A model generated the notes under the pieces. The model ran no database searches and had not been told where the DNA came from. It was given only the letters and a program-made list of their open reading frames with translations. Position numbers and translations under genes: made by a program. From contig NC_081545.1 of assembly GCF_901000735.1 (NCBI RefSeq), forward strand, positions 3,454,583 through 3,518,582: a stretch of 64,000 bases of DNA, given 5' to 3'. This stretch comes from Corylus avellana (lineage: Eukaryota; Streptophyta; Magnoliopsida; Fagales; Betulaceae). Of this stretch, positions 12,876 to 57,076 are shown piece by piece. Every line of letters starts with the position of its first letter. Position 1 is the stretch's first letter.

Positions 12876-14874
12876 TTAGATTCGTCTACTTCTGTTTCTA
12901 ATTTCTTTGGACCATCTCCTGACTAGCCAGTAGGCAAAGCGAACGAAGTCCAAGAAAACCATTATTCCTATTATTGTCATCGCCAAGCGTGAAGCATTTA
13001 TGCTCGTAGGTCCAATCAACAAAAATCCGCAAACATAACTTGCAGCCATGCAACGCACAGCAATCCCCAACAATGCTTTGAGTGGAAATCCATCCATAAC
13101 TAAAATAATCACTGCAAGCGATGCGAAAAATCCAATAGTGTTGGGAACCATGAATGAAAGAAATTCTTGTAAATCTTCTGATATATTAGCAGCGACGTGA
13201 TCTTCGCCGTAATAAACGCCATTGGGAGGATCTAGTATGGCTTGGTAGGTTATAGTTGCGATAAGAACAGCCACAACAAGCAAAGCATTTTGAGTTTGTG
13301 ATGGTGACTTTTTCACTTCATTTGCTAACATTTTCCAAACTCTCCAAGGGTTCAGATATGAAATTTCATGTAATAAGAGCTGTCGGAGAGTCTGGGGAGG
13401 CGGTGCCTCCCTCACCGAGATTTGCCTGTGATGAACTTCAGCAGTATCAATGTCTTCAATTTCATACACTCTTAAGGCTCCTGCGCGCAGAAGCAAATCT
13501 CTGAGCATGAAATCAGTGGGTTCACCCACCATTTGTTGTATCACGTCGGACACATCCAAAGCAGTTAAGCCACTCTTGTTGGTCATATTCACACCGACTG
13601 CTTCACGATAGCTACCGTCACCACTAAGTAGCAATTTCACTGTCTGTAACACGTATTAAAGAATATAATGAGGCATGAATTAATTAGTTTCTCATGCATT
13701 CTCTGTAACTAAAGCCTGCAGAAAGGCAAACCATTTGACTAGGAAAACATTTTCAGACATATCCTAGGGGCTAAACAATCTTCTATTGGCATAATTAGAC
13801 GAAGGAATTGAATCACATTGGATCCTACTTTTACCCGCAAATAGTATCGAAGATAAATTGACTTCAACAATTATATGATTCAAATTTGAACAGTTCACAT
13901 CTTCTCCTAATTGTCTTTTCTCCTATATATACTAGATTGTAACTAAACACGTATACTGGTAGAGATATATATTCATCTAACTAACGGTTAATGAAGTCTA
14001 TATAAATAACACTAAACATTAACAGCTTATGAATAAGCTGCCAAACATTTTAATTAATCCGGCAAATAATTCACAAATTTATGTTCCTTTGCTAATGAAG
14101 CTGTTCGAGGTGATGAGGTAGTTTGAGTTGAGTTATCTGAAACTGTTAAAGATCAGAATCTGAAGTTTCTGTCGTTTCCTGATCCTATGCTGTCGGTCCA
14201 TTTGTCTTATTATCTATTTCTACCGTCGTTATTTAAAAGGCGAAAATGTGGAAAAACATCGTGGATATGTTTATTAAAAAGATGGCATTAGTTACCTGAC
14301 TCTGCTTCCTAGCAACTGCAAGGTGTAAGACAGTGTTGCCATCTTCATCCCCAGCACTCATAATTTCAAGCATGTTAAATTGCTTGAGTATGTCAACCAT
14401 GGCTTTGAAGGCCTCCAATTGGTTATACTTCACAGCGTGGTGAAATGCAGTCTCGCCTTTTAGAGTCACGTCACCTATACTGTCAGGACAGAAGTCATGC
14501 AATTCCTTAATGACTTGAACCTGCCCAGTTATAGCAGCACAATGAAGAGAAGTCCTTCCATCCCTGCTCTTAAGACGGGCAAGTTCCCTGTTAAATATCA
14601 GTAGCTCTCTCACTATTTCAACAAACCCTTTTGCGGAGGCTATGTGTATTGCGCTAAAACCATCCTTGTCAAGTCTAGTGGCAAAATCTGGTCTAATTAG
14701 CTTCAGTAGCTCCCTCACAAACTCGGTTTGCCCACTCATGGCTGCAATGTGTAGGATAGTCTCAGGGTACACGGCCAGTGAATCTCTCTCCAGTAAGAGG
14801 GAGTCCGCTCCATGTAATCTTTGCAGTTCCATGGAGTTTCCATTAAGCGCTGCATCCACCAACCTGGAATCCAT
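12876..14874 (-). CDS. Ankyrin-repeat PGG-domain membrane protein, BDA1-like
   Basis: Two exons: 14874-14296 (193 codons, donor GTAACT) and 13643-12876 (255 codons plus stop, acceptor TTACAG), phase 0, giving 448 residues. Residues 1-200 hold about five ankyrin repeats, with motifs such as ETILHIAAMSGQTEFV, DGRTSLHCAAITGQV and DGNTVLHLAVARKQSQ. A linker is followed by a PGG domain with QNALLVVAVLIATITYQAIL at about 311-330, and three further hydrophobic segments at about 357-376, 384-403 and 412-434. This order matches plant BDA1/ACD6/ITN1-like proteins, which sit in membranes and act in defence or stress signalling; the role of this copy is inferred only from the family. The start is the first ATG in frame with the conserved MDxRLVxAALxGN opening. 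No stop or shift was seen, so it is the only intact member of the local cluster. Confidence 0.9.
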
Positions 14875-15977: not shown

Positions 15978-16193
15978 GGAAAATGTTAAGGTCACAACTT
16001 AACATAAATTCAACTTATGGCCAACTTCTCTCCTACGTGTCATTTAAATAAAAAAATTGATAGGGAGGATTTTGAGATTCCCAAAATTTGGGAAAAAAAA
16101 ACAATTTGTTTGGTTTAAATTTCAAATTTTTTTTTACACATAGGAGAGAAGTTGGCCATGAGTTGGGTTTGTGTTGTGTCCGTATCAAACCTC
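15978..16193. mobile_element. 216-bp MULE-type MITE, same family as the Pack-MULE
   Basis: The left end is GGAAAATGTTAAGGTCACAA and the right end, reverse-complemented, is GAGGTTTGATACGGACACAA; both continue into CAACTTCTCTCCTA. These are the same two distinct termini found on the 25635-37353 element. The paralogous copy at 42905-42935 lacks it. The target duplication is degraded (TTTTA is shared). Confidence 0.75.
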
Positions 16194-25625: not shown

Positions 25626-25799
25626 TTTTCGGAAGAGGTTTGATAAAGGCACAACATAAATCCAACTTAAAACCAACTTCTCTCCTACCTGGCCATTTTT
25701 TTTTTTTATTATATTTTTTTTAAAACCAAATCAAAGGTCTGTAAAAAAACAAATTTTCAGAAATCAAAAAACCCCCTCTCAGTCCTCCCGTGCTTACCC

Positions 25800-26044
25800 T
25801 CTCTCTCCTCCGGTGAGTTCTTTGGCCACCGGAAATCCTCTCTCACTCCATCGCTCTCCCTCCCGCGCTCACCCTCTCTCTCCTCCGGCGAGTTCTTCGG
25901 CCACCGGAAATCCTCTCTCACTCCATCGCTCTCCCTCCCGTGCTCCCCCTCTCTCTCCTCCGGCGACGTCTACAGCCACTGGCGAAGCTCCTGTCTCTCT
26001 CTCACTCCGGCGAAACCGAAGGCTCTCTCTCTCCTCCACCGGTG
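25800..26044 (+). other. TIR-derived leader-like sequence with splice donor
   Basis: CT-rich, CCGGCGAG-containing sequence inside the left TIR ends in GGTG followed by GTAAGT (26045-26050), a strong splice donor. It contains two near-identical units of about 81 bases (about 25800-25880 and 25881-25961). An 79-codon ORF spans it, but composition and repetition argue for an untranslated leader. A rearranged inverted copy lies at about 37080-37220. Confidence 0.4.
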
Positions 26045-26592
26045 GTAAGTAATCCCTCTTTCTCATCCACATTCAAAATCTAGGGCTTTTTGATTTATGT
26101 GTAGTGGGTGCTAGAATAGTGTATTAAATTTATGTGTATTTAGGGTTTAGATTTGCAGTAGATAGAATGATAGGTGGTTGTTTTCCTGCATTATGGCCGA
26201 ATATATATTACCAAACAAAAAGTTGTTTTTGGTACAACTACTACTCTCTCTGCAAGTGATATAAGAATGTAAGCTAGAATTTTCATTTTATCAAATATTG
26301 CGAATTGAACTCTTAGCACTGGCCTAATTTTAGGGAAATTTAAGTAGGCTATATATCCACCTTGATATATCAAAAAGCTCAATAATTTCTGTATAAACTA
26401 CTGTCTTTGTGAAGCCCACGGGTTTTTTATTTATTTTTTTTGTTGGTTGGGGGTGGGGGAATAAAAAAGCAAAGGTATATGATTGCACAATTAAGGAATC
26501 AATGATTCAAATTGTCAGAACTACAAGGACCACCCAAAGCCAAAGAACAAAAAATATGGCTTGAGATAGATATATGTGCGATATGTAACAAA

Positions 26593-26754
26593 CTAACAAA
26601 CAAATACAGCCCTAAGTTGAGCAGTAAGGCCTAAGATTATAATGTGCATTTTCCAGAGGCCACCAGCAGCCAAACCAAGTGCCAACCCAATGCATAACTC
26701 CTTGACAACACTTGGTCCTTTCAAGGTGGCATGAGCAACCCTAGAGCCAGCCAT
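26593..26754 (-). pseudogene. COX5C: Cytochrome c oxidase subunit 5C, C-terminally truncated copy
   Basis: The minus-strand ORF of 53 codons opens MAGSRVAHATLKGPSVVKEL and runs through GLALGLAAGGLWKMH. These are the N-terminal matrix-side segment and the transmembrane helix of plant COX5C, a small subunit of mitochondrial complex IV. After KMH, where the family continues HWNEQRKTR, the sequence changes to IIILGLTAQLRAVFVC and stops. The expected C-terminal about 27 residues are missing. Upstream, CTACTTGCAG (about 26791) looks like the acceptor of the leader intron typical of plant COX5C genes, so this is a genomic copy, not a retrocopy. It lies inside the Pack-MULE. It may be translated but is unlikely to be a normal subunit. 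Confidence 0.8.
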
Positions 26755-27010
26755 TGTGCTTCTTTAGTAGAAAGCTTGTAAAGTCTGCAAGTAGAGATGT
26801 CGGGCCATTTTCATTATTTTCTTTTTAAGAGGCACAAAAGTAAAATCAACAAGCCAATCAATTAAAATAACCAAACAATATTTCCAAAGGATAAGTAAAT
26901 GCCAGATTACAACTGTTATTACAAATTAATATTGTCATATCAGTTCAAACACCCAGTAAGTGAATTTGTTACAGATTATATTACAGATGGACACGAGTCT
27001 TACTGCAGCT

Positions 27011-27153
27011 AGGGGCGAAACTACATTGTGAAGCCCCCAAGCCTCAACGCGTTCCCCAAATATATATATAACCCTTTCAAAATCAAAATTTTACTGCCCA
27101 AAAAAGTTCTTTTTGGTTTTGTCCCCTGCACCTAAAATTGTAGTTCCTCCCTT
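27011..27153. mobile_element. Small hAT-like MITE
   Basis: The left end AGGGGCGAAACTACA and the right end, reverse-complemented AAGGGAGGAACTACA, form an inverted repeat around about 143 bases. The flanks CTGCAGCT and ATGCAGCC match at 6 of 8 positions, suggesting a decayed 8-bp duplication. Related fragments occur near 11347, 18009 and 41476. Confidence 0.6.
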
Positions 27154-27746
27154 GATATGCAGCCTATGAAAGAACAAGGACAAGCTAGTTATTGCAACTT
27201 CAATATTGTGAAAATCTTGATAATCATATGCTGCTAGAATCAAATATTAATTGCAACCTGACAGCTTCATATGCTACTACAATCAAATATTAATTGTAGT
27301 TCCACCCTTGATATATAATCATATGCTACTATGCTCTCTCTCTCTCGCTCGTGTTCTTTTCAATTTCTTCCTCTTATTTGTCAATTTTCTGTTCCAAATC
27401 TGCTGCCATTGGATCTGTGCAGTTGTGTAGTTGCTGATTTAGCAATTGTGTACCGGTTTTTTTTTCTGGAGTCTTGTAATGGTTTGAGTGTTTGATATAA
27501 AATCAGCTTATTCATCGAAAAGAAAAGGAATGGTTGAAAGTGCATACTTGATTGTTGTGTGTTCTGTTCTGGAAATTTATGGTTGTTGCAAAATGGGATA
27601 ATGTAGTCGAAAGGATTAGTATTTCTAGTTTTTCATTCTATAGTAGCTTAAGAAACCATCTATTTGCTTGCCGAGGCATATGAGTGTATGAACAATAGCT
27701 AGTGCAACTTGGTAGCAGACTAACCATTAATGCTTCTTTACTAGAC
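27154..27746. other. Noncoding Pack-MULE interior left of the LINE
   Basis: AT-rich DNA with a repeated ATGCT(G/A)CTA..TCAAATATTAATTG motif (27228-27295) and a CT microsatellite near 27336-27352. No ORF or splice structure that I can support. Confidence 0.5.
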
Positions 27747-27791
27747 AGTAACCTAGTTTTTTTTTTTTTTTTTTTTGTAACAAGACATCCA

Positions 27792-30700
27792 TTAACAAAC
27801 CAAGGGGCCAAAGGCCTTACAACAGGAGAAAGAAAGAGAGGGGGGTGGATCCTTTCCACTACATAAGGGGATTGATGGAGGGGGGGGAAAATAAGTGGGA
27901 ATGCAGCCCGAGAACACTCTTGCCGCGGCCCAATAAGCCACATGGTGGGCGCAGAAGTTTGCACTTCTGTGAATTTTCTTTGCCTCCCAAAGAGGGGAGG
28001 CTTTAAGGAGTAACAAAGAGTTGGCAATCACCGATTGTATATGCCAGTCAAAAGTGATGGAAGGGTTTTGCAAAGCATCTATAATCACCGATGAGTCACC
28101 TTCAAGAGAGAAACTTGAGAGCTTCAAAGAGGCTGCTAAGGAGGCAGCAAGCTGAGCTGCAAGAGCTTCACCATAGATGGGATCACATGGAGGATTTATT
28201 TGGGAAATAGCCTTAACAATGTGACCCTTTGAATCTCTGCAAACAGCAGCCTGCACTGAAAATTTTTCCCTTATAGCAGTGTCAAAATTGATCTTGTGTG
28301 AACCTGCTGGGGGAGGAGACCAGAATTCTTTTACAGTAATAGGGGAGGAATACTTCCAAGCTGCTGCATGATCCAGAGATGTTCTTTTGATGGAGCTAGC
28401 CAAAGAAATGATATCTGGAATAATGCCTTCATGCACTGCTTTATTTCTAGAAAACCAGAGGAGATCACATAAAACCGAAGCATAAATTTGAAACAAGTGA
28501 GAATCAGCTTTAGGAATACCAAAAGAGGAAAAAGGATAGATGATGCCTTTTATCCAGTCTGGGAGACTAAGAGAGGACCAAGCTAAGGAATCAAGAGGCC
28601 AAAAAGAGGATCTCCATGCAACTCTAGCAAAAATGCAACGAAAGAAGAGATGGGAAAGAGAATCCTCTTCTGAGCTGCAAAGAGGGCAAAGGGATTCTGA
28701 ATTAGGGATATTGAAGATAGCTTTCAGCCTGACTTTAGAGGGGAGAATGTCCCAAGCAATTTTCCAGAGAAACAAAATCAGCCTAGCATTAAGCTTTAGC
28801 TTCCATAAAGCCTTCCAAGAGCTAGACTCAAGAGGAGAAATGACAGTAGAGTTTCTAGAGTTGCTAATCAACCTAAAAGCTGAGCAGGTAGAAAAGTTGC
28901 CATTTGAGGAGGGGGTCCAAAGAAAAGAAGTGGAAATGTTAGGGCTGATTGGAATCTTTAGAATTTCTTTGACACAAGGGGAAGTGAACAAAGAGACCAG
29001 AAGAGGGAGATTCCAACAGCCATTTGGGGTAATGAGATCCGATATAATCAAGTCAGGATAAGAGGACCTACTCAGAAGCAGAGGAGTGGGGGTGAAAAAA
29101 GGCACAGTAGGAATCCAGGAGGAGTTCCAAACAGAAAGGGAGGAAAATCTATGAATCCTATGGCAAGCACCTTGAGAGATGATTGGCTTAGACTTTAAAA
29201 TGCCTTTCCACAGCCATGAAGAGGAAGAAAGGGAAGAGGGGGAGAGGAAAGATTCAGATTGGAGATACTTACCTGAGAGCTGGGACACCCAAAGAGAGTC
29301 TGAACCCGTGAGGAGCTTCCAACCAAGCTTTGATATGAGGGCTAGATTCACATCTTTCATCCTCCTAATGCCTAAGCCACCAAAAACTTTAGGGGTGCAG
29401 ATAGAGTTCCAAGACTTGAGAGAGAGATTCCTGGTTTTTGATGAGGGAAATCCCCACCAAAAATTTTTGAAAGCCTTGTCTAACTGGTTGCAGAGACTCT
29501 TTGGGAGCAGGAAAGTGCTCATGGCATAGGAAGGGATGGCTGCAGCCACAGAATTGATAAGCATCAACCTTCCAGCTTGAGAGAGGGACTTTGCACGCCA
29601 TCCATCCATCTTAGATTTAACTCTATCAAGGATATTGAGGAAAGCTGCTTTTTTGGAATTGCCTAAGAGGATAGGGAGACCAAGATAAATAGACTTTGAT
29701 GGGTTTTTTGAGTAGGGCAAGATATCAAGAATCATTGCAGCAGTGGTGAGGTTGGTGTTTTTTGAGAATCTTATAGAAGATTTTCCATTGTTAATGGATT
29801 GGCCAGACCAGAGACAGTATTTCTTAAGGCAAGAACAGATAGTATTGGCTTCTTTGAGGGTGGCTTTACCAAAGATCAAGAGATCATCAGCAAAAAGGAG
29901 GTGGTGGATGGCTGGGGTATTCCTGGAGATTTTCAGCCCTTTGATGTTTCCTAGAGTTTCTTCTCTAAACAGCAATCTAGAAAGGACTTCTGTTCCTAAG
30001 ATGAAAAGGAAAGGAGAGAGGGGATCACCTTGGCGAAGGCCTCTCGTGGGGGAAAACTGACCAAAGGGGCTTCCATTAATAAGAATGGAGAAAGAAGAAG
30101 AGGAGATGCAAAGTCTGATCCAGTTAATCCAAGATGAATGGAATCCCAACTTCTTCATAACAGATAAAATGAAATCCCATTCCATTTTGTCAAAAGCTTT
30201 CTCCATATCCATATGAAGAAACATGAAACCCCCTTTCCCTTTTTTGCTTTTGAAAGAATGCAGAAGCTCATGGGCCAGAATGGTATTGTCTTGGATATTT
30301 CTGGAAGGAACAAAAGCTGATTGCAGGGGAGATATGATCTTGGGGAGCAGAGTCTTCAATCTAGTAGCCAAAATTTTTGTAATAATTTTGTAGACAATGT
30401 TACACAAGCTGATAGGCCGAAAATGGTGCACTGAATGAGAACCCTGCTGCTTTGGAATCAAAGCAATGTGAGTGTGATTTTGCTCCTGCTGCAGATGATG
30501 ATTCTGGAAAAAATTTCTAATGCAGACAAGAACATCAGTTTTGACAATGGACCAGTATTTCTTATAAAAGAGAGCTGTGAACCCATCCGGACCAGGAGCT
30601 TTAGTTGATCCTAAACTGGAGAGGGCTTGAACCACCTCTTCTTCAGGAGGTAAGGCACATAAGAAAGAGTTGTCCTCTGCAGAGACAACCGGATCAAAAA

Positions 30701-31949
30701 GACTAAGCATATCTTCTTCAATAGGAGGAACCGAGGAGGAGAACAAATTGGAGAAATGGGACACAAAATTCCCTCCAATTTCAGCTCTATCAGAAATCCA
30801 TGCCCCTTCATTTGTCTTCAAAAAGTTTACTGCATTTGATCTTCTTCTAATCAGAGTAGAGGAGTGGAAAAATCTGGTGTTGAGATCCTTACACTGCAAC
30901 CAAGTTTCTCTGGATTTCGACCTCCAAAGAGATTCTTCTTTAATCAATAAACCATCAAGTTCTTTTTTCAGCAGAGATTCTTGCAAGCTAGCTTGGGAGC
31001 TGGGTGGGGAAATCTGGATCTGATCAATCTTAAACAGAGAGGACTTGATCTGTGCTTGAATGTTACCAAAAATAAGTTTGTTCCACCTTTTAAGGGCTGC
31101 TTTAGTCTGAGCCAGCTTCTTCACCAGAACAAGGCCTGGAGGGCCAGAAACCAAATGCTTCCAAGTAGCTGCAATGACCAGACCACAAGAGGGATCCAGA
31201 GTCCAGAATTCTTCAAATTTGAAAGGTCTAGGCAAAAAGGAGGAGGTATTATTAGTGTTTAGAGAGATGGGGTTATGATCTGAGATGGAGGCCGGGAGAT
31301 GGATAAGAGAGAAATCAGGGTGAAGATGAACCCACTCTAGGGAGGCTAGACCTCTATCAAGCCTTTCTTTAATAGTAGCAAAACCTTTTCTATTGTTACA
31401 CCATGTGAAGGGGTTTCCAACAAAGCCAAGGTCCACCATGCCATGCTGATCTATAAAGTTTCTGAAGGGACAGTGGGAGGAGCTAGCAACAGGTCTGCCT
31501 CCAAGTTTTTCAGATTGATCCAGCACAAAGTTGAAATCACCAATGCAGAGCCATGGACTAACAAAAGCCTCACCAGCAGCAGTGAGAGAGTCCCAGAAGG
31601 CTAGTTTGTTTTTCTTTTCTGGGGGGCCATATATACAAGATAGGATCCAGGGGCAGTTGGGAGGGTCAGAATAACACCAAGCAGTGATGTTGTTCTTATT
31701 TGTGAGAAAGCTTTCTAGTTCCACGCCTAACCTCCAGGCAAGAACAAGACCACCACTAGAACCAATAGAAGCAACTTGAGTCATCAAGTAGAAACCAAGA
31801 CGATTCAGAATAGAGGAGACTTGAGAAGGAGAAGTTTTTGTTTCAGAGAGAAAGAGAACATCAGGGCTATTGGCTCTGATCAAAGCCCTGAGACCACGAA
31901 CTGCAGCAGGGCGAGAAATCCCTCTGCAGTTCCAAGATAAAATCTTCAT
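27792..31949 (-). CDS. LINE ORF2: endonuclease, reverse transcriptase, RNase H
   Basis: A 1385-residue protein. Residues 1-230 form an exonuclease/endonuclease/phosphatase-type domain with WNCRG (N7), SETK (E36), GDFN (D138, N140) and SDHN (D224, H225) in place. This domain nicks the target DNA. Residues about 490-760 are reverse transcriptase, with MDMEKAFD (D581), GLRQGDPLSP and FADD (D688, D689). A zf-RVT segment with CPLC and H..C residues lies around 1100-1180. The C-terminal about 150 residues resemble an RNase H domain (NFDTAI, YGEALAAQLA, LEGDSS), as in many plant L1 lineages. The start codon overlaps the ORF1 stop as ATGA at 31949-31946. All catalytic motifs appear intact. Confidence 0.95.
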   Translation of the reverse strand: MKILSWNCRGISRPAAVRGLRALIRANSPDVLFLSETKTSPSQVSSILNRLGFYLMTQVASIGSSGGLVLAWRLGVELESFLTNKNNITAWCYSDPPNCPWILSCIYGPPEKKNKLAFWDSLTAAGEAFVSPWLCIGDFNFVLDQSEKLGGRPVASSSHCPFRNFIDQHGMVDLGFVGNPFTWCNNRKGFATIKERLDRGLASLEWVHLHPDFSLIHLPASISDHNPISLNTNNTSSFLPRPFKFEEFWTLDPSCGLVIAATWKHLVSGPPGLVLVKKLAQTKAALKRWNKLIFGNIQAQIKSSLFKIDQIQISPPSSQASLQESLLKKELDGLLIKEESLWRSKSRETWLQCKDLNTRFFHSSTLIRRRSNAVNFLKTNEGAWISDRAEIGGNFVSHFSNLFSSSVPPIEEDMLSLFDPVVSAEDNSFLCALPPEEEVVQALSSLGSTKAPGPDGFTALFYKKYWSIVKTDVLVCIRNFFQNHHLQQEQNHTHIALIPKQQGSHSVHHFRPISLCNIVYKIITKILATRLKTLLPKIISPLQSAFVPSRNIQDNTILAHELLHSFKSKKGKGGFMFLHMDMEKAFDKMEWDFILSVMKKLGFHSSWINWIRLCISSSSFSILINGSPFGQFSPTRGLRQGDPLSPFLFILGTEVLSRLLFREETLGNIKGLKISRNTPAIHHLLFADDLLIFGKATLKEANTICSCLKKYCLWSGQSINNGKSSIRFSKNTNLTTAAMILDILPYSKNPSKSIYLGLPILLGNSKKAAFLNILDRVKSKMDGWRAKSLSQAGRLMLINSVAAAIPSYAMSTFLLPKSLCNQLDKAFKNFWWGFPSSKTRNLSLKSWNSICTPKVFGGLGIRRMKDVNLALISKLGWKLLTGSDSLWVSQLSGKYLQSESFLSPSSLSSSSWLWKGILKSKPIISQGACHRIHRFSSLSVWNSSWIPTVPFFTPTPLLLSRSSYPDLIISDLITPNGCWNLPLLVSLFTSPCVKEILKIPISPNISTSFLWTPSSNGNFSTCSAFRLISNSRNSTVISPLESSSWKALWKLKLNARLILFLWKIAWDILPSKVRLKAIFNIPNSESLCPLCSSEEDSLSHLFFRCIFARVAWRSSFWPLDSLAWSSLSLPDWIKGIIYPFSSFGIPKADSHLFQIYASVLCDLLWFSRNKAVHEGIIPDIISLASSIKRTSLDHAAAWKYSSPITVKEFWSPPPAGSHKINFDTAIREKFSVQAAVCRDSKGHIVKAISQINPPCDPIYGEALAAQLAASLAASLKLSSFSLEGDSSVIIDALQNPSITFDWHIQSVIANSLLLLKASPLWEAKKIHRSANFCAHHVAYWAAARVFSGCIPTYFPPPPSIPLCSGKDPPPSLSFSCCKAFGPLVC

Positions 31950-33655
31950 ATGCTGCTGGGGGACACCACATGGTCCCCTAATTCAGTGGATACAATATTA
32001 ATTGGCACAACAGAGGCAGCAAGAGAGATAGAAGGTATAACCTTTTTCTTTTTTCTAGAAGCTTTGAAGAAAGACCTTGCTGGGAGCTGCAGAAGTTTGT
32101 TTGGAATGGAGTCCATAGGAGTGGGAGATTCCAACTCATCAGGTGTGGGAGCTATCAGAGGCGAGCTACAAGAGCCTTTCTTACATGGGAGAAGATCCCC
32201 AGTCAGCCTAGCTCTTTTCTTTTTTACCAGAGAAGGGTTATAACCTGGAGGGGAAGGCTTTACAGGTTTGTGTAGGCGTGGTGGGAAGAGGGAAGAACGA
32301 GTGTTTTTTGAGGGGCTAGCTTTTTTGGAATTGTTTGAAATTTTTTTCCCGGGTAGATTTGAAGGGTTAGTTAATACCGTTGGCTTGAAAGTGAAATCTG
32401 ATGTGGAGGGGAGAGGTAGAGTCATGTTTGGGCTTAATGGGAGACTAATGAATAGAGAAGGTTGGGCTTTAGAGGAGGGCCCAGGTAGATCTTGGTTCGA
32501 GACTAACGAGCAGTTGGAGTGAGAAGATAACTGATTAGGAGGTTGGGATATGGGATGGATAAGAGATTGATGTGGAGTTGGTGGTATGGCTGTGTTGTCC
32601 AGAGCAGTAGCAGTGGAGGGGATAAAGGTGATGGCATTTAATGAAGGAGTTGGTGGTATGGCTGTGTTGTCCAGAGCAGAAGCGGTGGAGGGGATAAAGG
32701 TGATGGCATTTAATGAAGGAGAGGTGGGGAGTGATGTCACAAAAGTTTGAGATATTTTCTGCTGCATGAGTCGTGTAGAGTCTAGCTGAGTTTGGGCATT
32801 GTGAACAGGAGTTTGGCTAGCTTCACTAGACTGAGTTAACTCAATTGGCCTATTTTGAGAAGATGAAGGTTGTGTTTGGGTTATGGTAATGGCAGGGCAG
32901 TTTTTTGTAATGGGGAAGTTTGACAGCATGTTAGAGAAGATGTTAACTTGGAGAGAAACAGCATACTTCTCAGGAAATCTATCTTCGGGTGGAGCAGTGC
33001 AATGGAAGAGTTTATGACCAATCCTTCCACAAGAAGAGCAGTATATATCCAATCTCTCATATTTCAGAAAAATCCAGAGAGACTCACCTCCATCTCTACG
33101 AAAAGTGAACCCAGGCTTCAGAGGGTTCCCCACTTCAATATCCACAAGAAGCCTTAGAAAGCTTCTGAACGTTTTTTTTTCACCACTTAAAGCATCTACC
33201 TTGATAAGCTTTCCCAAGCCTTTCCCAATAGAAATGGCAATCTTTGTAGTCATATTGATTAGAGGAAGCCCGTGAACTTGGATCCAAAAGGGGGCTTTGT
33301 TGAAAGGTAATTCCCCTAAAGTAGCTTGAGGATGCCATTGCTGGAGAATGATGAGGAAGCCATTGACATTCCAAGTGACTTGTTTCTGAATTCTTGCTAG
33401 GTGTTCAGGCTTGGAAAGTTTGAACAAAAATTTGTTAGGACCTAAAACAGCATGGGAGAAGGGGACAGCAAATTCCCAAGCTTTTGAAAGGGCTGCAAAG
33501 ACAGCCTGGTTGTTTAGAGTTTTATGAGAGATGACATGTCCTACCAAAGGTAGGCATTCATCCGTGGCTGTTTCAGCTGTTAAGGACTCAATCTGGGATG
33601 AAGGATCATCCCAAGAGAGAGCCTCTGTCTGGGCAATAAGACTCTCAATATCCAT
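31946..33655 (-). CDS. LINE ORF1: DUF4283 and zinc-knuckle RNA-binding protein
   Basis: A 569-residue protein. The N-terminal about 30-190 matches the DUF4283 type found in plant LINE ORF1 and in gag-like proteins. It is followed by a CX2CX4HX4C zinc knuckle, C206-C209-H214-C219 (YCSSCGRIGHKLFHC). The remainder is a serine/proline-rich tail with basic patches, consistent with a nucleic-acid chaperone that packages the LINE transcript. The tail contains an in-frame direct duplication of 72 bp (32577-32648 and 32649-32720; unit SLNAITFIPSTA..PPTP). The start is the first ATG and lies about 165 bases inside the element's 5' end. Confidence 0.92.
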   Translation of the reverse strand: MDIESLIAQTEALSWDDPSSQIESLTAETATDECLPLVGHVISHKTLNNQAVFAALSKAWEFAVPFSHAVLGPNKFLFKLSKPEHLARIQKQVTWNVNGFLIILQQWHPQATLGELPFNKAPFWIQVHGLPLINMTTKIAISIGKGLGKLIKVDALSGEKKTFRSFLRLLVDIEVGNPLKPGFTFRRDGGESLWIFLKYERLDIYCSSCGRIGHKLFHCTAPPEDRFPEKYAVSLQVNIFSNMLSNFPITKNCPAITITQTQPSSSQNRPIELTQSSEASQTPVHNAQTQLDSTRLMQQKISQTFVTSLPTSPSLNAITFIPSTASALDNTAIPPTPSLNAITFIPSTATALDNTAIPPTPHQSLIHPISQPPNQLSSHSNCSLVSNQDLPGPSSKAQPSLFISLPLSPNMTLPLPSTSDFTFKPTVLTNPSNLPGKKISNNSKKASPSKNTRSSLFPPRLHKPVKPSPPGYNPSLVKKKRARLTGDLLPCKKGSCSSPLIAPTPDELESPTPMDSIPNKLLQLPARSFFKASRKKKKVIPSISLAASVVPINIVSTELGDHVVSPSSI

Positions 33656-33836
33656 AGGGGAGAAAGGTAGTGAGGAAAAGGATGAGAAGGGAGTAAAAAG
33701 GAGAGAAAGGAGTAAAGATTTCAGGTTGACTGGGGGAGGAAGAAAAGTTTAGTTTAGGGGAAAACTTTCTTCAAGGGGAGCTCTTTCAGAGAGAGAGCGA
33801 GAAACAAAAAAAAAAAAATAGTAACCTAGTTTTAGT

Positions 33837-34087
33837 ATAGGTACAAACTAGCGCAATTTGGTTGCTCTACTTTATCAAAATATATAAAAGTTTTTGTATA
33901 TGATATCAAACAATTAAACTTCTCTAATTGTATGTTTGTACCTATAATAAAAACTCCTTATAAGTGTTTTATAGTTTTAACGGTAATGTATTTCTGGGAT
34001 GATGGCCAATGTTTCATCTTTTGTTTGGGTAATAATTTTGCTTTGACACACCATGATGGCTTTTAACTTTGTATCCCTTTTTTATAG
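33837..34087. other. Pack-MULE interior, putative intron end
   Basis: AT-rich DNA that resumes the sequence interrupted by the LINE. It ends in a pyrimidine-rich CCCTTTTTTATAG acceptor at 34087 in front of the acidic exon. No ORF. Confidence 0.4.
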
Positions 34088-34236
34088 ATGTGGATGAAGA
34101 AGTTGAAGAACCAAATGTCTTAAGGATCACTTGTTCGGATGAAGAGTTGGATGGGGATAAAAGTTCGAATGAAGAGTTGGATGGAGATGAAAAATTTGAA
34201 GAAACAGAGATAGTGAAAGTGTTTGTTAATTTGTAG
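34088..34236 (+). pseudogene. Acidic C-terminal exon of an unidentified gene
   Basis: After an acceptor-like TTTTTTATAG, one frame is open for 49 codons to TAG at 34234-34236. It encodes a very acidic tail with the internal repeat SDEELDGDKSSNEELDGDEK. Its first codon needs one base from an upstream exon. The only plus-strand donor I can point to is GTAAGT at 26045. I do not recognise the protein. It could be the last exon of a captured gene or of an element-encoded transcript. Confidence 0.4.
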
Positions 34237-35287
34237 TTATAACGTGCAAATGATGGTAGCTTTAGGAAAAATAGTGAATTTGGGGCAGTGGGTTTTAGTA
34301 GGGTTATGTTTTAGTGTCTATATTTTTTTCCTCTTCACAATTATTGTGTATCTTAATGTGACATCTAATGTATCTATTATTTCTAGTTCTCTATTTTATG
34401 TTTGTTTTGCATATGTGGGAAATGTTAGAGTTGTCTTAACTATTAAGTTAAATTTTATCTTGCTAAAAAACAGCGTGTATGTCCTTGAGAATTAGGTTGT
34501 AACAAAATGGCGTATTTTATAAGAAAATGTAGATGGACGCATTTGCAGGTCCTAGGCGATCGCCTCTATATGTTTTTCCAACAAAAACCAACTTCAAGTT
34601 AAAAAAAACTAAGATTGAAAGTAGGCAATATAACTTGACAGTATGACGTATTAGAAGTTCAGATATGCTGCAAACTGGTTCTTTTAACCAAAAGGCAATA
34701 AGTGGTTAAGATGACAACATCTCATGTTGAATTGCAACTTTCCAATTTGTACCGATACTTGGCTGATTATTAAACCCAAAAAAAACAAAAAACAATCAGG
34801 CCACTCAAGCTTAGATGCCTTTCAACATGATGTAGCAATAAGTTAAAAGGCAATAACCATTTTTCCTAGCTATGCTAAATATCACCTCATATTCTCTTTG
34901 TCTCCAAAATTGATTTAGCTTTTAAGACATGTATATATTTATTTATGTTTACCGAGGAATCTATCAATGAAATGTGATTAGGTGACAATCTTGTTGCAAA
35001 GCCAGAAGTGGATAAAAAACATTTCATGCATAATTATCAAATATCCCTCTCCAGCAACTAAAAAGTGAATAGCTTAAATAGGAAATACAAATGTGATTAA
35101 TTCCCACGAATTCAACAAAACAAATAAGCACCATGAAAACATCATGTGCAACAAAATATCAAGTCATGTTTCCTACAACAACAGTTTCTTTATGTTATTT
35201 GCACCAGCAACAGTTCATGGATGAGTGCTCTTGGAGTAATCATCAAACTTCTGTTTACCATGAAGATGTTGATCTCTCACTTCCCCA
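34237..35287. other. AT-rich interval, no gene seen
   Basis: This lies between the acidic exon and the end of the CMC2-like gene. A 90-codon ORF at 34223-34495 is hydrophobic and AT-driven, without recognisable motifs. The 3' UTR of the CMC2-like gene probably extends into about 35100-35287. Confidence 0.4.
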
Positions 35288-36121
35288 TTAACTTTGAACA
35301 AGGTTGTTCTCTTCAGCAGTTTCCTTCCTAAAAGCTTGTAGTCTTTCCTTCAATTTCTTACTCTGCTCAAAATTTGCTTTCCGCTTCAGAGCTTTCTGTC
35401 AAAAAAAGTTGAAGATCTTGTTATGAGAATAATAAAATAAAGATCCCAACCAGAAAAAAAAAACCAAGACCCATATAATGAAAACTCACCTCCTCCCTGA
35501 AACAACGATCAAGCTTTATTTTGAGATCTGTACATTCACCAAAGAATTTCCCAATGGGATGGTCTATATGACACTTTTGGAACTCCTCAATAATCTGCAC
35601 AAAATCAGATAGAACAATCATACCAACATCTATCCACTTATTCGCCATCTTCCAACATTTGATTTGAAGAAAAAAAAAAAAAGAATGAAATGCTTCCACT
35701 GAACTGGACATAAGAATCAAAATTATGACATGGACATTTATAGTTTGTGAAGCAAAACACAGTTCACTTTACATTGATTGCCATAAAACTATTCCAACTT
35801 CTCTTGCTCATAGATGATAGGAGGGTTACCATGCCAAAATCACCTTTCCTCTTACTTATTGCTACTCAATCTAGACATATCCCAACTACTCGGATTTGGC
35901 TCAAAATCCTAGGACCATGTATCTCATAATATGAACCAAGAAAATTAATAGATATATCCTGTCAAAGCTATCCATTTAAAGTCAGCCTCCACAAAATAAA
36001 AAGAAGAGATTTATAAGCCTAAAGAAATTGTGGATAGTAAATCATGAAAAAAGCTAGAAGATGAAGATGGACTCACTTCGGCGCACATCGGGTGCTTGTG
36101 TAGTGTTAAAGGATGATGCAT
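35288..36121 (-). CDS. CMC2: CMC2-like twin CX9C protein for complex IV assembly
   Basis: Three coding exons on the minus strand: 36121-36077, 35594-35490 and 35395-35288. All introns are phase 0 with GTGAGT donors and GCAG or ACAG acceptors, giving 85 residues. The protein starts MHHPLTLHKHPMCAE, continues IIEEFQKCHIDHPIGKFFGE and ends in a basic helix (KRKANFEQSKKLKERLQAFR). It has the twin CX9C motif C13-X9-C23 and C36-X9-C46 that forms two disulphides in the intermembrane space. This matches plant homologues of COX assembly mitochondrial protein 2, which acts in copper handling and assembly of cytochrome c oxidase. No stop or shift was found. The gene lies wholly inside the Pack-MULE, with its 5' side toward the right TIR. 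Whether it is expressed, or duplicates an ancestral gene elsewhere, cannot be told here. Confidence 0.9.
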
Positions 36122-37019
36122 TTTCCTTTCTTTCCTATTTCTTTTCTATTTTTTCTAACAAAATCGCTTCAAGCTGTAGCAATCTGCAACAACCACCACC
36201 AGCAAAGTTTTACCCTAAAAATGCAATTTTTCCCAAATGAAAGACAAAGCATGAATCTGACTGAGATTGTGCGTCCAATTGGTTCCTAAGCAAATTAAAG
36301 CAAAAGGGATCAAAAAATTAAAAACTAAAGATCTTTCATTTTTTCACATAACAATATTTGACAATAGAAAGAACCAATTTTACCCCTAAAAGCAACAATC
36401 AAAAATCCGGAAGTACACGAATCAAGAAACAAGAAGCTCCATCACTGATCAAAACCCAGCAAGAACACACAAATATATACAAATTAACAATACAAAGAAA
36501 CAAATATACCCATAAGCAACAATAGAAAATCTAGAAATACATGAATCAAGAAATGTAAAGCTCCATCATTCATCAAAACCCAATAAGAACAAACACGCAC
36601 AAATATAAGCAATACCCAGATTAAAAAAAAAAAAAAATGAAAGCAAAAAATCAAATTGACAAAAAAAATGGAGGAAAGCAAAATCAAATAACATATAATT
36701 AATCAGATATTTGACAGCGCGTAAATATATGTATGCATCAAAAACAAAAACAAAAACAAAATTCGCAAGAATTGAACAAAAGCCCAGATGAAAAGAAGGC
36801 AATATGTGATTGTCTGAATCAACAAACGCGTGTTACATGTAATTGAACAAAGATTCCACAGTAATCGCATCCAATATAATGGCTGCTGGGTACGCAAAGA
36901 ATAAGAAGAATGAAGACCACAGTTAAGATAGGATCGAAACGCACTGTTTAGTTGGTGGGCTCTTCCTCTTCCTGCTCCTCTTCCCGTGCAAGAAGCCTGT
37001 AAATGCAACAATAGAGATA
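36122..37019 (-). other. Putative 5' UTR and leader intron of the CMC2-like gene
   Basis: On the minus strand, GTTGTTGCAG at about 36190 and ATTTACAG at about 37000 look like splice acceptors upstream of the start codon. The exon-like stretch below 37000 is not obviously coding. Transcription probably starts in or near the right TIR (about 37020-37220), a CT-rich CCGGCGAG region typical of plant leaders. This is an inference from sequence style, not from a recognised promoter motif. Confidence 0.4.
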
Positions 37020-37362
37020 GTAAAAGATATCATTGTAATCTTTTCTTGGCAACAAAATTGTAAATTCAAGTGAGAGAGACAGGAGTTTCGCTGGTGGCCT
37101 TAGACGTCGCCGGAGTGAGAGAGACAGGAGCGACGTACGGACAGCTTCGCCGGTGGCCGAAGAACTCGCCGGAGGAAGAGGATGAGTGCAGGAGGGGGAG
37201 CGAGAGATTGAGAGAGGATTTTTGGATCTAAAAGGTGAGAGATAGACTATGTGTATGGTTTAAAATTCAAACTTTTATTTTTTAAAAGAAAAATGCCATG
37301 TAGGAGAGAAGTTGGTCCTGAGTTGGGTTTGTGTTGTGCCTTTAACATTTTCCTTTTCGGAA

Positions 37363-54118: not shown

Positions 54119-55465
54119 CTAGATAAAGTACTTCTTGAGGTGCTCGGCATTCCACGGTCTGGGGAGTGCTTTTCCTTCCATGCTCTCGAGGTAGTAAGCT
54201 CCTGCCCTTCTACACTCAATCACTTTGTAAGGTCCTTCCCAGTTTGGAGCTAATTTTCCTTCCGTAGGATCTTTGGTGGCAATGGTGGTCTTGCGTAAAA
54301 CTAGGTCCCCGATCTTGAAGCTTCTGTGCTTGACTCCTTTATTAAAATACTGAGCCACTTTCTCCTGGTATGCCGACATGGTTACTTGGGCCTGGTCCCG
54401 CTTCTCTTGTAGTAGGTCCAAGTGTAGTTTGAGCCCTTCGTCATTCGCCTCGGAATGAAAAGACTCGACCCGGTAACTTCCCGAGCCTATCTCGGCTGGG
54501 ATGACCGCCTCGGTCCCAAAAGCCAAGGCATATAGAGTCTCCTCAGTGAGTATTCTTTTGGTTGTTCGATATGCCCACAAAACTTCTGGAAGATCATCTG
54601 CTCAATCTCCCTTCCGATCGCCAAGTTTTTTCAGAATTTTAAAAATTGTCTTGTTGGTGGCTTCTACTTGCCCATTTGCCTGGGGATGAGCTAGGGAGGA
54701 GTAATAGTTTCTTACATGAAGTTTTGCACACCATTCTCGAAATGACTCGTAGTCAAATTACTTCCCATTATCAGTTATAAACACATGTAGAATATCATAG
54801 CGGCATACGACGTTCTTCCACAAGAACCGTTCAGTGTTTTTGGCTGTAATATTCACTAGGGCCTCTACTTCTGCCCATTTCGTGAAATAATCCACTGCTA
54901 CAACCGCGAACTGAACACCCCCTTTTCCGCGAGGTAATGGTCCTACTATATCCACCCCCCATTGTGAGAAAAGCCATGGCGAAGAGATTGAACTCAGATC
55001 TTCTGGGGGTTGCTTTGCAACGTTGGCGAAGTGTTGGCATTTGTCACAATTTCTGACTATCTGTACAGAGTCCCAACTCATATTCGGCCAGTAGAAACCG
55101 GCCTTGATTGCTTTATGTGCCAACACTCTTGCTCCCGAGTGGCCGCCACAGATACCTTTATGAATCTCGCGAAGAACATAATCACCTTCTTCCTTGGAAA
55201 TACACTTGAGGAGTGGTAGCATGAAGCCTCGTTTGTATAGAGTCCCGTTAATGATAGTGAATCTGGCAGCTCTAGCTCTGACTTGCGTTGCTGACTTCTT
55301 ATCCGACAGGAGAACTCCTTGTTCGAAATACTCCCTTATGCTCTTCTGCCATTCCGGTATGGTCTCGGCAACTGAGACCGAGACCGTGTCGGTCACGGCA
55401 AGTCTTGCTAAAGTCTGGATTGGCCCTTCAGTCTCTTCAGTGGCGCTAGCTGGTGCTGACGCCAT
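54119..55465 (-). pseudogene. Gypsy integrase
   Basis: This runs from the N-terminal HHCC zinc domain (EIHKGICGGHSG, later CDKCQ) through the catalytic core with DIVGPLP, ITDNG and the glutamate in HPQANGQVE, to a C-terminal domain ending RPWNAEHLKKYFI. The core is interrupted by stops near 54750 and 54600, and the C-terminal part (54580-54119) is open. Integrase inserts the cDNA into the host genome; this copy cannot make it whole. Confidence 0.88.
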
Positions 55466-55474
55466 TCGGGCTAA

Positions 55475-56461
55475 CTAGTCAGCTCTTTCATTCTCTTCTC
55501 TTGGGATCTTCATAATATAGAATTTCTTGAATGCATTCTGTAACGTTTGTACTTTTGATAAGTATTGTTTCATTTTATCTCCTCTGGCTTCAAACTCTCC
55601 TCGGATGTGCCCGACAATCACCTGCGAGTCGCTCTGTAGTTCAACGAACTTGGCTCCCATCTCTCGGGCTAAAACGAGTCCTGCTAGAACTGCCTCATAC
55701 TCGGCCTCGTTATTGGTGGTCTTGAATTCTAACCTCAGGGAACTGCATAACTCTTCTCCATCTAGGGTGATTAATACCACACCAGCTCCACCATTCTTCC
55801 TTGTGGATGATCCATCTACATAGACCACCCATGTTTCATCTTTCTGCCATTCCATGTTGACAGGTAAGTTTGTGAATTCTGCTAAGAAATCGGCCAGTAC
55901 CTGCCCCTTGATAGCATTCCTTGGGAGGAATTCAATGTCAAACTCTCCGAGTTCAATCGCCCAGTTAGCTAATCTGCCAGACAGATCTAACTTCCTGAGC
56001 AGTTTCTTTAACGGATACTCGGTCAAGACTCTTATGGTGTGAGCTTGGAAATATGGGCGTGGATTTCTAGAAGCAATAGTTAATGCAAATGCCAACTTCT
56101 CCATCTGAGGATACCACTCTTCTGCTCCCCTCAATGCTCTGCTTATAAAATAGACTAGTTTCTGAACGCCGTCTTCTTCTCGGATAAAGGCAGCACTTAT
56201 AGCTATTGGGGAAACAGCCAAGTACAGATACAATGCTTCCCCGGGAACAGTTCTACTTAGCAGGGGTGTGCTTGCCAGGTACTTTTTCAGTTGTTCAAAA
56301 GCTTCTTCACATTCTGCAGACCACTCAAATGACTTCCTTAGGATTTTGAAGAATGGTAGGCATTTGTCAGTCGACCGAGAGATGAACCGATTTAATGCCG
56401 CAATTCTGCCCATCAATTGCTGAAGTTGCTTTGTATTTTTAGGCGATTGCATATCCAACAC
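55475..56461 (-). pseudogene. Gypsy dual RNase H region
   Basis: A 328-codon open stretch. The first half is the degraded gypsy RNase H that follows RT (FEWSAECEEAFEQLKKYL, YFISRALRGAE). The second half is a separate archaeal-type RNase H with VVYVDGSSTRKNGGAG, NNEAEYEA and QSDSQVIV, which supply the catalytic acidic residues. Two RNase H domains in tandem are diagnostic of the Tat lineage. The frame ends in TAG directly after NERAD and continues into integrase. Confidence 0.88.
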
Positions 56462-56527
56462 TGCTTGGATCTTCTCGAGATTAGCTTATATTCTTCGATT
56501 TGACACCATATAACCGAGAAAGTTACT

Positions 56528-57076
56528 CTAGGCCACTCCAAACGCACACTTCACGGGATTCAATTTCATCCCATACTTCTTCAAAGTTCTGAACGTCTCC
56601 TGCAGGTCTTCTACATGATCTTCTGATAACACGCTTTTCACCAACATGTCGTCGACATATACTTCCATATTACGGCCGATCTGGTCTCGGAACATTTTAT
56701 TGACCAGCCTCTGATACGTTGCTCCCGTGTTCTTCAGGCCGAAAAGCATAACCTTGTAACAATACAAGCCTCGGTCAGTAATAAATGTCGTCTTCTCTCG
56801 GTCTTCTGGATGCATGTAGATCTGGTTGTAGCAAAAAAAAGCGTCCATAAAGCTTAACAGGCCATATCCAGCTGTTGAGTCTACCAACGCATCAATGCGT
56901 GGCAGAGGAAAACTGTCTTTTCGGCATGCCTTGTTGAGGTCTGTAAAATTCACACACATTCTCCATTTCCCGTTGGACTTTTTGGCCAGCACCACATTAG
57001 CCAACCAATCGGGATAATATACCTCCTCTATAAACCGAGCCTTAAGCAGTTTCTCTACTTCCTCGGTGATAGCCAT
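56528..57076 (-). pseudogene. Gypsy reverse transcriptase
   Basis: A 182-codon stretch with WLANVVLAKKSNGKWRMCVN, FPLPRID and the YVDD catalytic box (MEVYVDDMLVKS). It is the palm and finger part of RT, which copies the element's RNA into DNA. The thumb continues toward 56470 across a stop. The segment itself is open, but flanking stops break the polyprotein. Confidence 0.9.

Follow-up and report, generated by a model that had tools for sequence, protein, structure and literature searches.

Sequence of two genes that serve mitochondrial complex IV, COX5C and CMC2, lies inside one block with inverted ends in a 64-kb stretch of hazel (Corylus avellana) contig C5 (C5:3454583-3518582, hereafter the window), and the question that this locus raises is how the two genes came to lie together. 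We searched the genome (370 Mb, 12 contigs) for relatives of the block, and we call the transposon at window positions 25635-37353 the window element and refer to fetched genome stretches by L-numbers (L014 and so on). In our view, 25635-37353 very probably arose by a single insertion. The inserted element would be a mosaic, non-autonomous member of a FAR1/Jittery-type family of Mutator-like elements (MULEs), with cargoes that were captured separately.

The window element spans 11,719 bp with a nested long interspersed nuclear element (LINE) included, and about 5.65 kb once the LINE and one duplicate of the LINE target are subtracted. A reading of this DNA made from the letters alone (the sequence-only reading) had proposed a single insertion delimited by long terminal inverted repeats (TIRs) and a perfect 9-bp target-site duplication (TSD), and we found both, together with two unoccupied sites. 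The TSD, TTTTCGGAA, is present at 25626-25634 and at 37354-37362. The left TIR (25635-26046, plus strand) contains about three repeats of a 75-bp unit, and the right TIR (37060-37353, minus strand) matches the left TIR and family copies; the outer 64 nt of the two arms are 84% complementary and inner matches reach about 26001/37072. When the flanks of the window element are joined, they match uninterrupted sequence at C5:3449582-3449983 (96%) and at C5:3431635-3432070 (87%), with a single TTTTCGGAA at each. Both of these paralogous sites, which are about 30-50 kb from the window element, read directly through TCTGACATTTTCGGAATGC. The empty site that had been predicted is therefore present on C5, as two paralogues, although the final bases differ (TGACATTTTCGGAATGC). 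Because the joined flanks are uninterrupted at two paralogous sites, we conclude that the whole block is one insertion, which either followed the duplication of the locus or hit one of the duplicates.

The ends of the window element recur throughout the genome. Using its left 266 bp as the query, we found matches at no fewer than 75 places (40 of 184 candidates scored), and we examined 20 fetched stretches, three further CMC2-bearing ones and small pieces as a sample of the family. The family ends are constant, and the left end (GAGGTTTGAT) is unlike the right end (G[G/A]AAAATGTT). Of the 17 two-ended copies (window element not counted), 10 show a perfect 9-bp TSD at these ends, one copy has an 8-bp TSD and one lies inside a TA repeat, so that the proposed search for other copies by their TIRs did recover a family with the same ends and TSDs of its own. 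Three relatives with these ends (L016, L020 and L040) contain the MULE domain PF10551, FAR1 is found in L016, L019, L020, L040 and L041, and SWIM in L019, L020, L040 and L041; the FAR1- and SWIM-bearing transposase frames are interrupted. By its predicted FAR1 N-terminal domain, SWIM and MULE core, we class the family as FAR1/Jittery-type. Two fetched cargo-bearing copies, L014 and L042, are without most of the transposase.

Host-derived cargo has a recurrent position in this family, between the transposase and the right TIR and antisense to the transposase. We saw this arrangement for COX5C in L019 and L020, for CMC2 in L040 and L041, for a WD40 fragment in L016 and for an FAD-binding fragment in L025, where it is next to a transposase remnant; these are four independent cargoes, a number too small for a statistical test. 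The family's cargoes other than COX5C and CMC2 are PPR, WD40 and FAD-binding monooxygenase fragments.

Two side observations concern the ends and flanks. A 216-bp miniature inverted-repeat transposable element (MITE) at window 15978-16193, which had been cited in support of the boundaries, does have the family's terminal pair, while no TSD is visible around it. The sequence GAAACAGAA occurs both in the left flank at L017 163 and in the right flank at L019 9241, places that are separated by about 31 kb (C2:49.706 and 49.738 Mb); the two flanks of L019 itself differ, and the flank shared with L017 would fit a nested or composite mobile unit.

The sequence-only reading had described the cargo as a COX5C copy plus an intact CMC2, and the second half of this description stands. 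The captured host CMC2 segment, delimited by comparison with a host pair on C4 and with L041 and L042, occupies 34872-36980 on the minus strand, is about 2.1 kb long and includes the whole gene. Its splice sites place coding exon 1 at 36077-36121, exon 2 at 35490-35594 and exon 3, with the stop codon, at 35288-35395 (all minus strand). The gene is intact, with three exons, GT-AG introns and a product of 85 amino acids that matches Pfam Cmc1 (3e-15); among the matches listed, the closest relatives are from Quercus and Castanea, and from Carpinus over exons 2-3. The region has 11 matches in the genome (11 of 11 candidates scored). CMC2 is present at four family loci, namely the window element, C4:11821222 (with a tandem copy at 11823683), C9:13831872 and C2:22894983. 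Of the remaining matches, those at C4:834084 and C4:847539 are host-like copies, and another four, at C4:1.02-1.04 Mb, are partial. The 4-kb stretches that we read at the two host-like copies (L043 and L044) lack TIR ends, and the pair is alike over 3.8 kb, far beyond the captured part, so that CMC2 moved from host to element. The 3' breakpoint is common to the window element, L041 and L042 and the 5' breakpoint to the window element and L041, which makes this one CMC2 capture. Correct splice sites and a coding frame are found in the window element, in L041, in the second C4:11.82 copy and in both host copies; in the first CMC2 copy of L040 one acceptor reads AA rather than AG, and exon 1 is gone from L042.

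Three further observations touch on CMC2. Element CMC2 retains the residues of Quercus-type proteins, A52 and R55, and it is the host pair that has replaced them, with S and Q in both copies. At C4:11814631-11825374 (L040/L051), CMC2 and the right TIR are tandemly duplicated at the end of one element, with TTTCAGCCC after each of the two right ends. In Carpinus fangiana, an annotated CMC2 model (P0060), from a 4.9-kb contig, starts with sequence that corresponds to the end of intron 1 in the window; this model may represent cargo or a wrongly annotated gene.

The COX5C of the window element is not whole. A captured segment at 26645-27271 (minus strand) is 97-98% identical to L014, L019 and L020 and 94% identical to the host locus, and it includes codons 1-37 of 64 (26644-26754, minus strand), as judged from a solved COX5C chain and the family alignment; the match to the solved chain covers residues 1-37 only, and unrelated sequence begins at about 26637-26644. 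Pfam returned no family for this 53-residue truncated frame, for a 49-residue acidic frame or for several cargo-like frames. A genome-wide search in which all 13 candidates were scored gave 12 protein matches to COX5C. Six are intact 64-residue frames in family elements (five identical, one 98%), all beside family right TIRs: we saw both ends in L014, L019 and L020 and placed the other three by their right TIRs, with the right ends read at C4:25.78 and C1:24.93 Mb and 28 bp of the right TIR reached at C1:0.25 Mb. The host locus is C2:16268410, where no TIR ends were seen in the 4.6 kb read. The captured part corresponds to 2,353 bp of this locus; L020 has all of it, while the copies in L014 and L019 are gapped internally, and the outer breakpoints are identical in all three, which makes this one COX5C capture. 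The window element retains host positions 2095-2740 only. Compared with the host, element COX5C proteins have R46W and A61T, and H37 where the host copy has Y. The earlier proposal that both genes were copied from unlinked donors was borne out, with CMC2 on C4 (0.83-0.85 Mb) and COX5C on C2 (16.27 Mb).

To place these cargoes within the window element, we mapped its segments against cargo copies and right TIRs, leaving out short TIR matches. The segment at 26047-26636 (plus strand) resembles family copy L015 (96.8% over 26047-26480 and 99% over 26481-26636), and the left part of the element as a whole, 25635-26636, is L015-like and is followed by the COX5C piece. A segment that is non-coding as far as read follows at 27336-27756 (98% identical to C2:19393957-19394377) and resumes past the LINE at 33838-34018 (88%). 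At 34012-34257 (plus strand) we found a 246-bp remnant of the transposase gene, which, compared with L020, L040 and L041, consists of the first 200 bp of the N-terminal exon and a later 50-bp piece with a 4-bp overlap. The 3.1-3.2 kb of central transposase sequence present in those three copies is missing here, which makes the window element a deletion derivative. Family sequence lies to the right of the remnant, followed by the CMC2 segment and then by the right TIR. An exon at 34089 had been a candidate for a captured acidic host gene, and we ruled this out because the family shows it to be the N-terminal transposase exon.

On this map, the two cargo genes were joined after separate captures, and the claim that a single element had captured both is not supported: the breakpoints are common to different sets of members for each gene, and the window element has a mosaic make-up. 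One ancestral member evidently took a whole host CMC2 and another a whole host COX5C, as the shared breakpoints indicate, and both cargoes then multiplied along with their elements. In the window element the transposase core is gone, the CMC2 segment is complete and the 5' half of COX5C is joined to L015-like sequence. The pieces were probably joined by template switching, recombination or gap repair between members, during or after transposition, and the element would have been mobilised by transposase supplied in trans. The element inserted at a place of which both paralogues are unoccupied, and the LINE inserted into it later. The window CMC2, which has kept upstream sequence of its own and whose splice sites are intact, could be transcribed.

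Several observations weigh against this account. The left TIR of the window element is only about 77-87% identical to those of other copies, so that the sample may not include its closest relatives, and the 20 + 3 copies fetched include no exact donor pair for recombination. At two sites the window COX5C piece agrees with the host against the six intact copies, and so it either branched off early from the COX5C lineage or had a separate origin. No TSD was found in five of the 17 two-ended copies examined, and no family copy fetched has an uninterrupted transposase frame.

The later LINE, which the sequence-only reading had passed over, is of the L1 type, about 6.07 kb long (27757-33819, minus strand), with AGTAACCTAG at 27747-27756 and 33820-33829. 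ORF1 (31946-33655, minus strand; 569 residues) is an open frame with DUF4283 and a zinc knuckle, and ORF2 (27792-31949, minus strand; 1385 residues) contains endonuclease, reverse transcriptase, zf-RVT and RNase H-like domains. Endonuclease and reverse transcriptase, a poly(A)/poly(T) end and a TSD are all present, and a LINE-free relative of the target stretch is present at C2:19394300.

If two complex-IV genes were captured on separate occasions, their shared function could reflect retention. Under this explanation, to which we give about one chance in ten, whole, essential, constitutively expressed mitochondrial genes are kept more often than others, as camouflage or for a useful promoter or protein. 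Two whole complex-IV genes were indeed captured separately and both were amplified, and camouflage, in which silencing would harm the donor gene, is proposed in the portion of PMC13317346 that we draw on. We counted derived changes in element CMC2, excluding L042 (exon 1 lost), codon 58 (common to the window and L033b) and sites that separate all element copies from the host pair. Three lineages together have 1 replacement and 5 silent changes (expected replacement fraction 0.78; P=0.0025), and the total of 6 changes compares with 12.6 expected. This is a weak, post hoc hint that element-borne CMC2 may be under purifying selection: the numbers are tiny, and adding two singletons from the tandem duplicate gives 3 replacement and 5 silent changes (P=0.016). 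Between the window and L041, coding difference (6/258) is no lower than non-coding difference (39/1603), and the P3H change of the window copy, in exon 1, falls in the conserved N-terminus. For element-borne COX5C we found no sign of constraint in the six intact copies, all of which have R46W, at a near-invariant site, and A61T, and the family's other cargoes do not belong to complex IV. A broader version is only slightly less doubtful. In it, the family's cargo position, past the transposase and in antisense, would be filled by exchangeable whole host genes that bring promoters of their own, complex-IV genes would be retained because an indispensable respiratory gene, through its expression or through shared sequence, helps the element to persist, and the window element would be a recombinant of two such cargo lines whose CMC2 is functional or recently was so. 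Unless transcripts or selection indicate otherwise, coincidence is the simplest explanation for two cargoes that serve complex IV; as its likelihood depends on the number of captures in the family and on the number of categories that could be shared, we judge the shared complex, noticed post hoc, to be unremarkable.

Joint capture of COX5C and CMC2 by one element, with the single-gene subfamilies as later deletion products, would account for both genes lying inside one element with one TSD, but it is improbable. Each fetched COX5C- or CMC2-bearing copy holds one gene, the window COX5C has codons 1-37 only where single-gene copies have all 64, and the transposase core kept in L019, L020, L040 and L041 is missing from the window element, which marks the latter as derived. 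Two independent MITEs around an old host CMC2-COX5C locus, for which the MITE with the same ends at 15978-16193 might speak, are refuted for practical purposes, since the donor loci of both genes lie elsewhere and the whole block is absent from the paralogous sites, each of which has a single TTTTCGGAA and not CMC2 and COX5C in order without TIRs.

Elsewhere in the window, 12876-14874 (minus strand) contains ankyrin-repeat and PGG-domain frames that resemble plant ankyrin membrane proteins, and 54119-57076 (minus strand) contains a remnant of a long terminal repeat retrotransposon with reverse transcriptase, RNase H and integrase frames.

Compared with known systems, the window element resembles Pack-MULEs (Jiang et al., 2004, as cited in the parts of PMC6446971, PMC13317346 and PMC9168764 used here) in its MULE ends, 9-bp TSD and donor-traceable host sequence. 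The label Pack-MULE, given to it earlier, suits the host-gene cargo with donors elsewhere but is loose in view of the transposase remnant. Unlike Pack-MULEs, it carries a complete gene with introns and flanks, and its relatives with the same cargo keep transposase sequence. Multi-gene Pack-MULEs are already known, according to part of PMC9168764, and genes captured by MULEs in general are mostly fragments without the donor's full structure, according to part of PMC13317346. The Jittery group (group 36) shares the FAR1 N-terminal domain, MULE core and SWIM zinc finger with the hazel family; the relevant portion of PMC6446971 gives it a TSD of 'not indicated/8 bp', TIRs of 39-292 bp and one ORF (open reading frame), whereas the hazel family has 9-bp TSDs, TIRs of about 290-410 bp and cargo. 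The likeness is one of predicted domains. Abermu MULEs with ORFR (PMC9168764) are likewise large and transposase-bearing and carry an additional gene on the strand opposite to the transposase, but they are MuDR-related rather than FAR1-type, and the origin of ORFR is unknown, host capture being one possibility according to the authors; the antisense genes of the hazel family can be recognised and traced to donors in the same genome. VANDAL MULEs that carry KIU/Ulp1 also have host-derived sequence beside MULE genes; as described in sections of PMC13317346, the Ulp1 domain of these non-TIR MULEs is ancient, fused and conserved, whereas CMC2 and COX5C were copied recently, as whole genes, in MULEs with TIRs. 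A literature search for cytochrome c oxidase with Pack-MULE or transduplication found nothing on this case. As multi-gene MULEs and reverse ORFs were already known, what is new here is the presence of complete, donor-traceable complex-IV genes antisense beyond the transposase.

Taken together, these data describe an element that is ordinary as a class and well delimited, with an unusually complete history. They also carry a warning for annotation, as extra CMC2 and COX5C gene models in the hazel genome are transposon cargo. One genome holds two complete captured genes, their donors, breakpoints and amplified descendants, a recombinant and unoccupied sites, and with the full capture history in one genome the source and role of MULE reverse ORFs, which are open for Abermu (PMC9168764), become directly testable.

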